Of a stretch of DNA of 24,590 nt, positions 11,237-24,590 are shown one piece after another (within the stretch, counting starts at the first letter, position 1; each line of letters starts with the position of its first letter). The stretch covers positions 451,369-475,958 of the forward strand of contig WELB01000033.1 in NCBI GenBank assembly GCA_009602725.1, given 5' to 3'. This DNA comes from Spirogloea muscicola. Taxonomy: Eukaryota > Streptophyta > Zygnematophyceae > Spirogloeales > Spirogloeaceae. A program made the translations under genes and the position numbers. The notes under the pieces were generated by a model. It had not been told where the DNA came from and ran no database searches. It worked only from the letters and a program-made list of their open reading frames with translations.

Positions 11237-13356
11237 TCATGTGGAGTGTACATGGATACGTACATCCTTCCAGTTGGATGTCACGAATTCCACAACTTCG
11301 TACATGATGTCCCCTTGTACATCAATCTGCTCCTTCTCCGTTGGGCCCTGCATAAAGCTTGTGCTACCTTAAGTTATTTGTTGACCACTCAAATCGACCA
11401 TCTACACACAGCTCATCAGGGAGCAGCATCATGTAGGTGTTGGACCAAAGTGAATGAGAAGCTCATTCACCTTAGTCTAAAACATACAGACTTTGTTACG
11501 AAATAGATTCTCCTGAATGGGACAGCGATTCAACGAAGCCCCACAGTGATTGACACGGTCGGGCTACAAAACCAGCATGCAATGCTTCTGCAGACGTGAC
11601 GCTGAGCTCCCCAACTCTGCTCTCGCCATGTCACCTTCACAACTGAAGCTCCGCTGGCAAACCGCTTCCCAAACTTCTTTGCAGCATCGGCAAGTTTCAC
11701 CCCTGCACTCAGAGGTGGGACTGACTGAGAAGGAAGCATATCACAACACAACAGGGCCTCCACATGAGCAACTGCCGAAGATCGGATGATATGTTTAGGA
11801 CTAAAGCACATATGGTAGTTTGTTGCAAACAGGCGGGGTAGTCTTGAAAAGGCAAGGCAGCATCACGCTGCAAATGGGCATTTCGCCAACAAATCTAATG
11901 GGTGAGCTGAATCAAGCATTTGCATCTGCGCTTAAGAATTGCACATACCAAAGAGCTCCATGCCCTTGATGGTAGTTACAGCCTTTCGCTTGTTCCGCGT
12001 AAATTTCTCAACCAGCACTTCTGGCCTTTCCTGCAAAGCCCGTGTCCACAGAAGAAGTAGCTCAGCCAAAAGCCCTGATCGATGCACTGGCAAATACCAG
12101 TGCATCCATCAGGCAGGATGGCACAGGATGGAGCCTGTACACACTGCTGCCACATTAGGCTCCAAATGTTGCAGCAAAACGTGCAGGCTTCATTCTGGTT
12201 TCTAAGCGGCAAAAAGTCACTGTGAGCACCTTCTTCTTTGTCTTGCCACCAGGCAGCTTCTTGACAACCTCCGGAACACTGTTGGAGCTTCCTGCTGCCG
12301 CTTCTGTGTGTCAAAACTTCATAGACTGTCACAAATATCTTAGTGAGAAAGCCTCCTACTGACTGAAACATCAGGAAGCTTCGATCAGTCATCAGAACAG
12401 CATACTAGAACGAAGATGAGCGATGAAATTAGCAATGCAAGTCGAAGTTTCTGCTCCAATCCAAACGCCACGAGGGGAAGTTGAAAGAGCTGCCTCCAAT
12501 CCTCACCTACACCCTTGGGCAGAAGATCCAGCGAGGGCTCCCCACTAAGCTGCAGCCGCTCAAGCTTCTCGGCAGCCTTATCTTCAGCTTCTGCTGCATG
12601 CAACGACGTCGGAATGAGAAAATCGAAGAAGCTCACATGACCGCACAGGTCACCGAGTCCACTTATCCACTTCCAACCACGCATCCTACACCGTTACCGA
12701 AGCCCTTGTCTATGCATGGAATAGCTCCGAGGTAAGTAGTGAGCTGCCAAATTTAGCCGGGGGGTCAGCACGGCAGGGCCATGTGCACGCTGTCAGAGAA
12801 AGGCCACCTTTCTGAAGCTCCGGATACAGCTCGGGGAAGTTCTCTAGCAGCCACGGCTTGCACTTGCTGAAGTCTGGCCCAAACTCGCAGTACTCCGGGG
12901 GCATGCTGCATACTGCTTACACCAGGAGCAAAAGAATTTCTTTAGTTGCTGCAGAAGAGAGGTCTTGCTGTTGCCTAGACCCTAGCCCCTGAACCCTTGT
13001 CTAAACCCATGCTCAAGATGTACAGACTAAACAGAGCATGGTCTGCGAGGCTCCTTGACAGGCACCAAGGTTGGCCAAGGAAGGCAATGGCCGCAGTCTC
13101 AAGCCCCTCCTACAAGGCCCCCTCAATAGGTCAGCCGGACGCCAACCGGCAGCTCCCGCCAGCCACTTTACCGTCGGAAGGCAGCGGGGACCGCTCAATT
13201 AGCCGCTCAGAGCCATGACCGACGGACTTCGCTAAGGCCGGACGGCCGAGGCGCAGGAGCCCGACCCGCCTGAACGCCCGCCTTGGAGCTGCGGGCCAGG
13301 GCGGAGAGCTTACCTGGGCAGTAGACCACCGTCTGGGGCTTGGGCTTGTCGCCCAT
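11237..13356 (-). CDS. DENR: Density-regulated protein DENR/TMA22-like (7 exons, 185 aa)
   Basis: The exons are 13314-13356, 12808-12912, 12507-12593, 12291... to 12230, 11949-12030, 11635-11702 and 11237-11347. They total 558 nt with all phases matching and GT-AG borders. DENR pairs with MCT-1 on the 40S ribosome to recycle subunits and support re-initiation. The N-terminus has a zinc site VVYCPVC...EYC...SKC (Cys13, 16, 23, 32), with the family block PPEYCEFGPDFSKCKPWL. The middle is acidic and charged, then a basic KLPGGKTKKK. The C-terminal SUI1/eIF1-like domain carries RNKRKAVTTIKGMELFG, KKFGKRFASGASVVK and KEQIDVQGDI. The short KLPGGK linker and the overall size resemble plant DENR rather than animal DENR. 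The start is the ATG at 13356; the stop is a TGA at 11237-11239. For exon 3, a donor at 12506 is preferred over one 6 nt earlier, since both keep phase. It is head-to-head with the FHY1-like gene, 760 bp apart. Confidence 0.92.
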
Positions 13357-13710
13357 GGCGCCGGGCCAATGGGGCGCCGGTCACGGCGCCCGCCCCGGCG
13401 GCGGCGGCGGCCGCGGCGGCCGCCGGTGCTGCTGCCGCATCGGCGAAGGCCCCGACGCGTCGTGGCCCTCCAGCGACGGCCTCTTCCAGCAGCCGCGAGA
13501 GCGGCGGAGGCGGCGGCGGCCTGGCGTTGCGCTGGGAGACGGTGAGGGGGCGCCTTTTGATGGTAGGGCCGACCGAACACCAACGAAAGGCTGGCGCCTG
13601 GCTCCAGGACGGCGCGGCAGGTGGGGCAAGGCCAGCGGCCGTCTGGTGTCCAGTNTATCTGCCGCTGAGCCGCGGATCTGGCTCCAGAGGGCAGACCCCA
13701 TCCTACGATC

Positions 13711-14017
13711 TTAGATGTGCTTGCCTTTGTACTTGGCCATTTGGCCTTCGTTTGTATCAAATACACGAATCCTTTTATCCTACGACCGCTCAAAGAGCCC
13801 AAAGGGGAGCCAAAAAGCCCTAAGGCCCGCTCCAATGGGATGACCCATCCTGACGACCGAAGGCGAGTACCGGCCAGGCTAGCGGTGGGTAAAGGTCAAA
13901 GGATGAGGGGATAGCAATCCAGGCTACACTGGCCTTGGGGGTTAAGGGTGGAGGGAAATACGTGCATTTGAAAAGAAACGAAGGCCAAATGGCCAAGTAC
14001 AAGGTAAGCACATCTAA
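13711..14017. repeat. 307-bp foldback (inverted-repeat) element
   Basis: The left arm 13711-13767 and the reverse complement of the right arm 13961-14017 match over about 57 bp with few differences. Both read TTAGATGTGCTT, then CTTGGCCATTTGGCC, ending near CACG. The roughly 190-bp interior has no coding potential and contains words repeated just outside the element. Both arms end in TTAGATGTGC and no clear target-site duplication is seen, so it may be a MITE-like foldback element or a rearranged repeat. Similar arm sequence occurs near 2812-2850. Confidence 0.7.
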
Positions 14018-14076
14018 AGAAAGAGCAGCAATAGCCGTCTCAGGCTACACTGGCCTTGGGATCAAGGGTGGAGGGA
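13920..14076 (+). repeat. Pair of about 36-bp direct repeats
   Basis: CAGGCTACACTGGCCTTGGG followed by AAGGGTGGAGGGA occurs at 13920-13956, inside the foldback element, and again at 14041-14076, just outside it. A related word, AAAGAGCC...GCTCCAATG, occurs near 13793-13838 and 14091-14109. The second copy lies just 5' of the FHY1-like start codon. This suggests partial duplication of the element's interior. Confidence 0.65.
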
Positions 14077-14116
14077 GGAGCCAAATGGGCCAAAGAGCCT
14101 GCTCCAATGCCACACA

Positions 14117-14996
14117 ATGCCATTTCTGCCGACCGTCACAAGCGAGCGGAGGGCTGGGACCGAGCAGTTCTACTCGGTCCAGTCTCGTTCCCTAAGCCGA
14201 TTCACCGCCGCCGCCGTCGCCGCTGCCGCCGCCGCCACCGCCGCCACTGCCGCCGTAGCTCCTGCCGAGGCTGCTGCCACAGTCCTGCCGACCAGCGGGC
14301 TCAAACGCAAGGAAGGCAGCGGCGAGGGTGACGAGGAGGGTAGTGCGTCAGCGCCTGCTGCGGAGGCCGTCAGCGGCAATGCTGGCGGCGGCGGCGGCGG
14401 CGGCGGCGGCGTCGCCTGCCTTGCCGCCGGCAAGGCCACGCAGCGCCGGGTACGCCGCATGGAGTCCGCCGAGGAGGTGGGCCGGCGGAAGCAGCGCCGC
14501 CTGGTGCGGGAGGAGGCTCTGCGAGGCGGCGGCAGCAGCGGCAGCTGCTGCGGCGGCGGCGGCGGCGGCGGTGGCGGCAGGAATGCCAAGCCGGAGTCTT
14601 CCACACTGAGCTTTCCCCCCCGCATGACTGCAACGCTGCCCAAAGACATTGTTGCTGCTGCCGCTGAGTGCGACAAAGACGATGAGGATGGCAAGGAGAG
14701 CGGCGGCAGCGCTGACGTCTTCGTCCTCTCCACCCGCGAAGGCAGAGGTATGACGAGCTTTGATTCGACGGCAAATGTCAAACTGGCATCCTGTAGTATG
14801 GGCCCCTCGTGCTGGTGCTGCGCTGCTCTGTGCTTGGGTACTCGCTGACCCACTGAGGCTGGCTCCATCTTCCCCCGCTGCTCCGCGGCCAGATGGTAAA
14901 GCTGGCATGGAGGTCTCGCTGAAGCCAGCCGTCGTAGAGAAGCGCGTCACGATTGACAGCGAGTTTGAGGAGTACTTTGCCAAGCTCCTCGTCTGA
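14117..14996 (+). CDS. FHY1/FHL-like phytochrome-A nuclear-import adaptor (2 exons, 244 aa)
   Basis: The exons are 14117-14747 and 14893-14996 (GT-AG, phase 1). FHY1/FHL proteins bind light-activated phytochrome A through a short C-terminal domain and carry it into the nucleus by an N-terminal NLS. The C-terminus here has FVLSTREGR (202-210), 13 residues before VVEKRVTIDSEFEEYFAKLLV (224-244), matching the family layout of a VLSSGRW-like block and a terminal TID.EFE.YF.xLxL motif. Candidate NLSs are LKRK (62-65) and the stronger basic cluster QRRVRRM...GRRKQRR (110-128). The rest is low-complexity: an Ala run at 31-47 and Gly runs at 89-98 and 146-154. An acidic stretch (185-194) precedes the conserved block. 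The ATG at 14117 is the first in frame after the repeats; ATGs at 14460 or 14625 are alternatives. The call rests mainly on the last 45 residues. Confidence 0.7.
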
Positions 14997-16397: not shown

Positions 16398-21052
<4,655 letters not shown>

Positions 21053-21053
21053 C

Positions 21054-21112
21054 AAGCCGATCGGCATGTGCCCCAGCTGCTACCTGCGGATACACTCCAC
21101 CTGCGTCCTCTG
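21054..21112 (+). other. Orphan Cys-rich exon fragment
   Basis: Directly after the N, one + strand frame reads KPIGMCPSCYLRIHSTCVLCA, a C-x2-C-x7-C-x2-C array that could bind zinc, and then meets a good donor-like CCA|GTGAGC at 21112/21113. Upstream is the poly-T block, so nothing can be joined 5'. Its phase does not fit the next GhrA-like exon. It may be an exon of an unrelated gene whose rest lies in the hidden sequence, or chance. I do not recognise a family. Confidence 0.3.
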
Positions 21113-21355
21113 CGCCAGTGAGCGTCTCTCACTCGGCCGCGCAAGATATTTGCTGCTGTGGACGTCACCGCGAGTGCCTCACAAGGATAGCTTCGGGCTT
21201 TTGCAAAGCAAACGACGAGCGAGCTTAGCAATGCAGACTGCATGAGGGTGCCAGACATGAATTAACAATAACACCTGTGAAAAAAACGATAAGAATGATA
21301 AACACTAAGTACAAGAGCACCGATGTCGTCTGACGATTCCCTGTTGTCGCTGCAG

Positions 21356-21371
21356 CTCCGCCGCCGCCGAG

Positions 21372-21409
<38 letters not shown>

Positions 21410-21415
21410 TGCCGC
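21356..21415. repeat. (CCG)n microsatellite
   Basis: This is a nearly pure run of CCG/GCC triplets with one interruption (CCGAGGCC). It lies 5' of the first recognisable GhrA-like exon, in its 5' UTR or first intron. Similar triplet runs occur at about 14380-14410, 14550-14580 and 21905-21935, so triplet expansion is a general feature of GC-rich gene starts here. Confidence 0.85.
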
Positions 21416-21453
21416 TGACGGGCAGTCCATCGTGAGGCGGCTGCCTCTGGCAG

Positions 21454-23797
21454 GGCGACTGGATGCCGGCGCTGCGCGAGGCTCTGCCGCAGGACCGGCT
21501 CCGCGTTTACCCCGACGTCGGCGACGCCGCCGACGTCGACGTCGTCATCATCGGCGAGGTCCGCAATCGCGGCCGCCGCAGCCGCCGCCGCCGCCGCAGC
21601 AGCCGCCGCTGCGCCACGATGTCTTGCCGGCTCCGGAAGCTCGCCTGCAGCTGGGCCAGGAGATGCGGCTGCGAGTCCGGGCCTCTCCCGCAGTGGCGGC
21701 GGCAGCAGATCCGCCTCACCGGCCGCGCGCCTGCGCCTCAGGCGCCGCCGGGCCTGCTGGCGACGCTCCCCGCGCTGCGGCTCGTCTGCAACCTCTGGGC
21801 CGGCGTCGACCACGTCCTCGCCGACCCGACGTTCCCGCGGTGCGCATCCGATGCCGTCGGGAGCTTCCGGTGGCGGAAGCCTTGCAGTGGCAATCACTGA
21901 TCGGACGGCAGCGGCGGCGGCGGCGGCGGCGGCGGAGGCGCAGGCACATCCCGCTGGTGCGCCTCGTGGACACCACCATGACGCGCGCGATGACTGAGAG
22001 GTAAAATCCCTTGCACGTGGTTGACAATGTCGCGCTTAATTAGCTATATAGCCAGTAGTTAATTTAGCTAAGTAGCTGAATTGCTGATTGCTAGCGCGTA
22101 AGTAGCTAAACAGCTAACAGCTGTTAGCTAGCTCAGGCCTGTCGCATGGCGAAGGCCGACCCGCCTCCGGCTGGCTCTGAAGGCTCCCAGCTTGGCACCG
22201 CTTGCATTGGCACTGCCCTCCTGGCCTTCTCACTAATTTTCTCCATTACCAATGACCACTCACTTCTAACCTATTCTTTCTCGCTTATATCTTCACTTAT
22301 CATTACCGCCCTTTCCTCCTCTCGCTCGCAAGCAGCGTGCTGATGCACGTCCTGGCGGTGCACCGTCGCCTGCATGAATACCTGCAGCAGCAGGCGGCCA
22401 GCACGTGGCTCAAGCTCCACCAGGTAAATCACCGCTGTGGGAAGCCCGTTGCTATTGCTCCTGCCTTCCCAAGTGCTTGGCAGCTTGGCAGCTCCAGCTC
22501 AAGCATGGGCTGTCGCTTCAGCAGCTCATAATTACGTATAGGTGATGGTCAGGGTAGAGTTATTCCCTCACCCTGACAATGTTGAGGCCTAACTCTTGAC
22601 ACAGGTGTTTAGAGTTAGGCCTTATGACCCCCCTCCATTTACCTTGCCCTCCTTGTAAATCTTGGCAGCCACACGCCCCCGAACGGCGCGTGGGCATCCT
22701 TGGCCTTGGCGAGCTCGGCACAGACGCGGCACTTAAGGTGGCTGCTCGCTACTACCCTCTCCCTGGAGAGCTTTTCTATAGTTATTGCTGGATGAGCACT
22801 GGAGCGAGGATTGCACCTGAAGGAGGGTGCTGACGCAGGCGCCGCCGTGCAGCTGAGCGCCCTCGGCTTTGATGTCAGCGGCTGGAGCAGGAGCGGCAAG
22901 GCCATTCCTAGTGAGAGGCCGCACCAAGCAGCTGTCGTGGTGGTCGATATCAGCTGCCGGCATTCGCGGCTCAGGCAAAGCGGGCTCCGCGGAACCGGCA
23001 GGAGTTCGGACATTCACCGGGCCCACTGAGCTGGACGCATTCCTCGGCGGTGCTGAGATCCTCGTCTGCCTCCTCCCCCTCACCGCCAGCACAGCCGGTA
23101 TCCTGGACGTAAGCCCCGCCGCGCTGCCGCCAGGCCGCCTTGAGCAGCAGCTTGCCCTCCTTGCCTAGCTAAAAACCGTGGGGCGCAGCGGACGGCGCTG
23201 GACAAGCTGCCGCGCGGAGCAGTGCTCGTCAACCTGGCCCGCGGCGACATCGTTGTGGAGGCCGACCTCTTGGACGCGCTCGCGTCCGGCCAGCTCTCTC
23301 GCGCTCTCCTTGACGTCTTCTCCACAGGTCAGCATCCTTCCCCCCCTTCCTCCTCTGTCCTCTACTCTGTCACTCCCTCTCGTCCCTTACCCTCCCCTCT
23401 CCTCCCCTCCTCTCCATCCACCACCCTCATACTCACACGTCCCTCATCCACCTTCTCTTAGCATCCTTACCTTAGCCACAACATTTCTGACAATATGGAA
23501 GGAGCCTGGCTGCGCAGAGCCGCTGCCAGAGGGGCACCCATTTTGGCAGCACCCACGAGTGGTGGTCCTGCCGCACGTAGCCGCGTACAGCGATGCAAGG
23601 TGCGTCGTCGTCGCCCGCCGCGGGCGCTCGTCGGCTGCCTGGCCCAGCCGCCGGCATCGCTGTGCCATCAGCCTTTGACACTGATGCACAGTTGCTCTGG
23701 TGCCTGGTCTGCGGCAATGCGTACGGCTCTCAACATCCAGAATCTGCGTCTCGGGTTGCCACTGGAGAACGTCGTCGACTGCCACCGGGGGTACTGA
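21454..23797 (+). CDS. GhrA-type D-2-hydroxyacid dehydrogenase (glyoxylate/hydroxypyruvate reductase-like), 10 exons, N-terminus uncertain
   Basis: The exons are 21454-21558, 21742-21839, 21944-22000, 22336-22423, 22669-22737, 22853-22910, 23002-23108, 23189-23327, 23518-23599 and 23692-23797. They total 909 nt (302 aa) with all phases matching. The family reduces glyoxylate or hydroxypyruvate with NADPH. The order is as in Ghr[11 protein letters not shown], then [32 protein letters not shown], the helix [15 protein letters not shown], the Rossmann motif [26 protein letters not shown], the catalytic-Arg strand VNLARGDIV, Glu in DVFSTEPLP, and the catalytic His in LPHVAAYS. The C-terminus ends VVDCHRGY with a TGA at 23795-23797. 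Bacterial GhrA is near 312 aa, so about ten N-terminal residues may lie in an upstream exon. Otherwise the ATG at 21463 is the start. The acceptor at 21453 (CTGGCAG) favours an upstream exon. The head-to-head arrangement with the ATRIP-like gene is seen only across the poly-T joint. Confidence 0.88.
22035..22134. repeat. AGCTA-rich simple repeat in a GhrA-like intron
   Basis: About 100 bases are built from overlapping TAGCTA, AGCTAA and GCTAGC words, at much lower GC than the exons. The words are self-complementary, so many small hairpins can form. It lies in the intron after the exon ending at 22000. No coding signal is present. Confidence 0.6.
22548..22622. repeat. Two adjacent inverted repeats in a GhrA-like intron
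   Basis: GTCAGGGT (22548-22555) pairs with ACCCTGAC (22570-22577). AGGCCTAACTCT (22585-22596) pairs exactly with AGAGTTAGGCCT (22611-22622). They form two consecutive hairpins with 14-base loops in the intron between the exons at 22423 and 22669. GAGTTA/TAACTC words are also shared between the first loop and the second stem, allowing an alternative fold. No known element matches. Confidence 0.65.
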
Positions 23798-24590
23798 TCA
23801 TTAGTATTAGCCAACCCTTTGTAGCGGCTGCCATTTAGGCCCTGCTGGCAACATATGTTATTACATTTTTCCCTCCCCTCAACCAGTTGACACGGGGGTA
23901 TTGAGGGCGCCCTGTCTGCCTAGCCTTTGGCTCCGTCATGAACACCTGTATGCATCTGGCTGGCAGTTTACAGCCGATTCTTTTACATCAGCAGCCGCAT
24001 TTCACCGGCTCAACTGCCTGCAACAGCTGCCCACCACGGCTTGCATGATGCATGCTCTGCCGCCGGGATCATTGGGTCCTGGAAAAGTGTGCCGATCCAG
24101 GCCGCGGAAATGCAGATACTGCATTGCCGTGCGTCTGCAGCGCAGTGCTCATATTGGATGAGCGCAGCACTCAGAGGCAGCGGCAAGATAGATCTAGCCG
24201 TGTATCAATTTGGGTTACCCGTGTGCGTCCTGATTTTTATTGGTTATTGGCAAATCTGTGTTGCTCTGCGGGTCTATTTCCAGGCAGAAGCCTTGGCGCG
24301 CCGCGGCGCGGCAGGTGGAGAGGCTGCACTGGCAGCGGCGGCACTGGCGCCGGCGGCAGCATAAGCCCCCTCTGGCGTGAAAGCCGAGTAAAGGCCTGGG
24401 AGGTCGTCCCTGGGCGGTAGCCCGCCGGCATCCTCTGATGGGAGGGTGAGCTGCGGCGGCCGAAACTCAGCCCGCTTGCACCTGCTGCGGTGGCAAGCGA
24501 GGTCGCGGGTCTGAGTATGGCAAGGTGGGTCGCTGAAGATGGAGGGAGGAAGTCATTAAAGAGAGAGAGAAAGAAAGAGGGGGTGGGGGG
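23798..24590. other. Right-end region without a supportable gene
   Basis: This stretch follows the GhrA-like stop. An exon-like piece at about 24283-24363 follows a TTTCCAG acceptor and reads AEALARRGAAGG... to a TAA, but its composition is Ala-rich and no upstream exon could be joined. The region ends in (GA)n at 24561-24578 and a G-rich tail. I see no domain on either strand. Confidence 0.5.

Follow-up and report, generated by a model that had tools for sequence, protein, structure and literature searches.

The gene described here most probably encodes an FHY1-type adaptor in the zygnematophyte alga Spirogloea muscicola, a reading of its sequence to which we give a probability of about 0.82. 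It lies in a window of 24,590 nucleotides, by which we mean the whole stretch of DNA that was analysed (bases 451369-475958 of contig C33, in a genome of 153 Mb and 471 contigs). This is a short gene with a predicted intron before its last exon, and the protein runs from basic motifs through a variable Gly/Ala/Ser/acidic spacer to the C-terminus VTIDSEFEEYFAKLLV. We favor the FHY1-type adaptor because of where the C-terminal motif lies, at the stop and behind the NLS candidates, because of the variable spacer, and because the same genome has phytochromes.

The features of the gene are collected in Table 1. The 3' end of exon 1 reads ...SADVFVLSTREGR, with position 14747 opening the codon that follows, and exon 2 completes the protein as (D)GKAGMEVSLKPAVVEKRVTIDSEFEEYFAKLLV-stop. 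A preliminary description of this DNA had joined 14747 to 14893, and this junction is exact as a prediction, with splice sites and phase kept in the three homoeologous copies of the gene; the terminal motif, the VLS...GR block and the stop are also where it had placed them. The two basic NLS candidates and the low-complexity Ala/Gly sequence that it had described are present in the frame, with Gly/Ala/Ser-rich spacers, and LKRK and the bipartite motif recur in the homoeologues. As for its reading frame, the exon junction and the 3' part stand, whereas the frame upstream of about 14237 is not trustworthy.

Table 1. Features of the FHY1-like gene and of the stretch upstream of it (positions in the window)
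Feature	Positions	Strand	Remarks
Probable assembly artefact (or very recent repeat insertion) in place of the true 5' end of exon 1	13656..14236		581-bp exact duplicate
Trustworthy part of exon 1	14237..14747	+	Ala/Gly-rich, with basic motifs, an acidic stretch and the VLS block; collinear with the C17 and C63 copies; open from PTSGLKRK onward in 3/3 copies
First basic NLS candidate, LKRK	14300..14311	+	same in 3/3 copies; NLS function presumed
Bipartite basic NLS candidate, TQRRVRRMESAEEVGRRKQRRLVREE	14438..14515	+	NLS function presumed
Middle block, KPESSTLSFPPRMT	14588..14629	+	between basic motif and C-terminus; invariant in 3/3 copies
VLS...GR block, DVFVLSTREGR	14714..14747	+	end of exon 1 (letters 14714-14746); DVFVLS[TS]R[ED]GR in 3/3 copies
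Predicted intron	14748..14892	+	GT-AG, phase 1, 145 nt; conserved in 3/3 copies
Last exon, C-terminal peptide of phytochrome-binding type, VTIDSEFEEYFAKLLV, and stop	14893..14996	+	last 19 residues same in 3/3 copies

Searched as protein, the spliced end of 87 residues revealed the copies through six exon matches, two each on C33, C63 and C17; when only the last 49 residues were searched against the genome, no paralogue beyond these came up at E values as high as 10. Two other places in the genome are homoeologous and collinear with most of the window. When compared with 40-kb stretches of C17 and C63, it aligns in order, with breaks, from 287 to 20888 (C17) and from 115 to 20929 (C63), and the long collinear blocks are about 85-91% identical, non-coding sequence included. 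The window also holds a divergent neighbor on the minus strand at about 12800-13356, which matches Pfam DENR_N (E 4.1e-14) and corresponds to density-regulated protein, a translation factor, and a frame at 268-669 with a DNL zinc finger (zf-DNL, E 1.8e-25).

The three copies share the splice signals of the intron, which starts with GTATGACG and ends with AG in equal phase, and its length is 145, 144 and 145 nt. Exon 1 ends with ...VLS[T/S]R[E/D]GR and exon 2 with TIDSEFEEYFAKLLV and the stop in all of them. In addition to the invariant C-terminal residues, the 24 residues TQRRVRRMESAEEVGRRKQRRLVR, which are the first 24 of the bipartite motif and extend to RRLVR, are the same in the three copies despite synonymous changes, and are then followed by one E/D change. 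The spacer is the most variable part, with substitutions and indels of whole codons. Over the alignable coding sequence, dN/dS (Nei-Gojobori) is 0.30 (C33-C63), 0.40 (C33-C17) and 0.79 (C63-C17). For the three pairs, it amounts to 0.06, 0.12 and 0.36 in the bipartite basic stretch, to 0.35, 0.72 and 1.10 in the part of the spacer before KPESS, and to 0.60, 0.10 and 0.29 in the C-terminal block, with just 7-9 differences per pair in the latter. The conservation and these ratios support a coding gene in which the basic motif is kept. They are weak evidence for selection on the terminal peptide: since the copies are merely about 8-10% diverged in the intron, dN/dS does not prove strong selection there, and the three copies are to be counted as a single evolutionary observation.

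The 5' end of the gene is affected by defects of the assembly. Positions 13656-14236 are identical to C99:21967-22547 (100% over 581 bp); this duplicate starts directly after a single N at 13655 and ends inside a (GCC)n run, which suggests an assembly artefact, and it is probably a gap-fill chimera. Positions 13700-14206 within it have many partial relatives in the genome (90 matches, with 40 of 2214 candidates scored). Except for a short shared repeat (13711-13776), the duplicate has no counterpart at the homoeologous place on C17 and C63, where the frame carries instead [F/L][V/L][Q/R]LVPTLRRDEKRLK[S/L]EHTPLREAAAA. As this stretch is probably an artefact, the true N-terminus of the window copy would be missing, and one should not read the ATG that the window frame has at 14117 as its start. 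Near the 5' end of the gene, C17 has poly-T and a run of N, and C63 has an N. Upstream of the gene, these two contigs have in common a block of 419 bases at 100% identity (L003:2341-2760, C63:662059-662477), against about 88% over the rest of the compared stretch; about 110 bases in the middle of the block are an interspersed repeat, and the identity of the block would reflect gene conversion or shared gap filling. Because of these N and poly-T runs and of this identical block, none of the three copies has a secure N-terminus.

Both ends of the window carry poly-T as well. A run of 112 nt occupies its start (1-112) and is akin to the poly-T and N run of the C17 homoeologue; these two look like assembly filler. 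A run of 123 nt with an N lies at 20929-21052, where the collinearity with C17 and C63 ends. Beyond 20929, nothing aligns to the remaining 9.8 and 14.9 kb of the C17 and C63 stretches. Positions 22000-23500 equal C4:1242518-1244018 (100% over 1501 bases), which makes a second exact duplicate after another N, and the right end of the window (20929-24590) is possibly a mis-join or a duplicated assembly.

The replacement of the 5' end by an exact duplicate of another contig is also what one would see if the window copy were 5'-truncated and decaying, its function being kept by the copies on C17 and C63. We regard this as unlikely: the replaced stretch runs from an assembly N to a simple repeat, as expected of an artefact, a comparable duplicate follows an N at the right end of the window, and the remaining part of the copy has an open frame and intact splice sites. 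Such a decay would, in any case, be compatible with an FHY1-type adaptor as the product of the gene.

The preliminary description had proposed to identify the phytochromes of the species. The PHY domain gave 21 matches in the genome, at nine loci: C16, C101 and C175 have a single locus each, while C48, C72 and C146 have a pair each, about 13-16 kb apart. These loci form three triplets, with identities of 86.5-91.8% in the six of the nine within-triplet pairs that were compared. The architecture was scanned for two of the nine, the gene on C16 and one of those on C48. In the ten exon frames of the C16 gene, Pfam finds PAS_2 (two frames), PHY, PAS (four frames, one of them below the cut-off), HisKA and HATPase_c. 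Two frames have no Pfam match, including that of the chromophore site (GAF), which matches phytochrome structures around GCHRQYMANMGS (17 PDB sequences, E up to 0.001, named phytochrome, phytochrome A or phytochrome B). Six of the ten frames of the C48 gene have a Pfam family, namely PAS_2 (two), PHY, PAS_4/PAS_9, PAS and HATPase_c, three of these only below the curated cut-off, and the other four have no match. The plant-phytochrome architecture is that of one sampled gene, the one on C16.

The bearing of the gene had also been made dependent on a charophyte source. GRAS genes, which are linked to Zygnematophyceae, account for 92 matches in the genome, and none of the 14 control genomes was matched. 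A genome triplication, as the homoeologous stretches and the PHY triplets suggest here, has been reported for Spirogloea muscicola (PMC7994812). Together with the phytochromes, these two features support such a source by inference. A strict DNA pattern for the APB core, used as a check for PIF, gave one match against one in the reversed control, that is, no signal, from a pattern that was built on a presumed motif and would miss introns or variants; this would leave some room, weakly, for an adaptor present without a land-plant-type PIF.

If the protein acts like Arabidopsis FHY1, its terminal peptide would bind light-activated (Pfr) phytochrome in the cytosol, and the basic motifs would bind importin alpha, so that the complex of adaptor and phytochrome could enter the nucleus. 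Once the phytochrome is back to Pr, the adaptor would be released and recycled. The layout of the protein is observed, while every one of these functional steps is borrowed from the Arabidopsis protein. In FHY1 and FHL, a nuclear export signal is reported to be present as well (PMC2483295, PMC4406131). The basic region and the disordered-looking acidic/Gly spacer would also suit a phytochrome-binding nuclear protein with an FHY1-type C-terminal peptide that works mainly as a transcriptional co-regulator or chaperone instead of carrying phytochrome into the nucleus. Fusions of FHY1 and FHL to a DNA-binding domain are reported to activate reporters in mammalian cells (PMC11161646), and the conserved middle block KPESSTLSFPPRMT, which has no Pfam match, is without an assigned role. 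This possibility nevertheless seems decidedly unlikely to us, as Pfam finds no DNA-binding or other domain in the gene and phytochrome import in moss is reported to be FHY1-dependent (PMC4406131, PMC6864062).

The C-terminal motif exceeds what chance would give. A degenerate DNA pattern for I-D-x-E-F-E-x-Y-F has three matches in the 153 Mb, all of which are the copies of the FHY1-like gene, and the reversed-pattern control has none in the genome; about 0.01 matches would be expected by chance, assuming equal base frequencies. In the C-terminal register, 9 of 15 residues are identical to the 15-mer that we take to be the end of Arabidopsis FHY1, whereas shuffling the last 45 residues 200,000 times gave at best 7 matches in any register; with a presumed reference, this agreement is a lead. 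The last 12 residues are not unusually amphipathic as a helix, 11% of shuffles being as high. With the last exon, 26 stretches of the viral collection and 185 of the prokaryotic one matched the short peptide pattern, and none was confirmed as a relative in either. The scan of the gene against Pfam, which may lack an FHY1 model, gave no family up to E 10, and among the PDB sequences no chain matched the window peptide or the presumed FHY1 peptide. The earlier call of an FHY1-like adaptor is supported in part, by layout, motif and phytochromes but not by a family profile, and formal membership in FHY1/FHL would rest on a presumed FHY1 sequence and motif. That the gene encodes an unrelated, lineage-specific disordered nuclear protein with a C-terminus made FHY1-like by chance or convergence is very improbable, for although no family profile matches, the shared motif is short and the comparison sequence is presumed, this motif is rare in the genome and placed exactly at the C-terminus, the VLS block and the basic motifs co-occur with it, and phytochromes are present.

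FHY1-like proteins were reported in ferns, mosses and green algae by a review of 2014 (PMC4406131), which makes the earlier statement that FHY1 is known from land plants out of date; the passage concerned leaves the green algae unnamed and is alone, in the literature covered, in stating a green-algal presence. It is also a review that puts the phyA-binding site in the N-terminal half, at odds with Genoud et al. (PMC2483295). Light-driven nuclear entry of phytochrome is reported in marine algae (PMC6864062) and in Micromonas pusilla (PMC8209157). The latter source also reports that FHY1 went undetected in the prasinophyte Pycnococcus; in its Table 1, the column 'FHY1,3' has none in the five chlorophyte rows covered. 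Since such entry is reported for algal phytochromes and FHY1 was not detected in Pycnococcus, an FHY1 adaptor need not be the sole or first import route, and it may not be the oldest one.

A working adaptor would mean that light-gated nuclear import of phytochrome has its components in an alga from the lineage that is sister to land plants, and the timing of that import step would become testable. As green-algal FHY1-like proteins and FHY1-dependent import in moss had already been reported, the gene adds a data point and does not open the question, and we make no claim of a first report for the S. muscicola gene. The contribution lies in the three homoeologues, the gene model and the phytochromes of the same genome, and is useful rather than surprising.

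When the gene is set beside Arabidopsis FHY1, with the sequence that we presume for the latter, a C-terminal TID-x-EFE-x-YF-x-x-L peptide stands at the stop in both. The VLSTREGR found here has two residues more than the VLSSGR presumed for FHY1, and the protein ends with LLV where FHY1 presumably ends with LML. Basic motifs lie upstream in both, followed by a variable spacer, which is Gly/Ala-rich here, and the protein is of the same type as the FHY1-like proteins of cryptogams (moss, green algae). The distance to TID is 164 aa from LKRK and 96 aa from the bipartite motif, in keeping with the spacer of about 150 aa reported between NLS and binding site in FHY1/FHL (PMC2483295). The preliminary description had read the large spacers as a linker-tolerant tether, which it may be by analogy, such tolerance being reported for Arabidopsis FHY1 (PMC2483295). 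In particular, Genoud et al. reported that an SV40 NLS, a YFP spacer and the last 36 residues of Arabidopsis FHY1 together complement the fhy1 mutant, and they proposed to define FHY1-like proteins by such a layout (PMC2483295). This layout, made of an NLS, a spacer and a C-terminal binding peptide, is matched by the gene of Spirogloea muscicola, in which the peptide ends at the stop.
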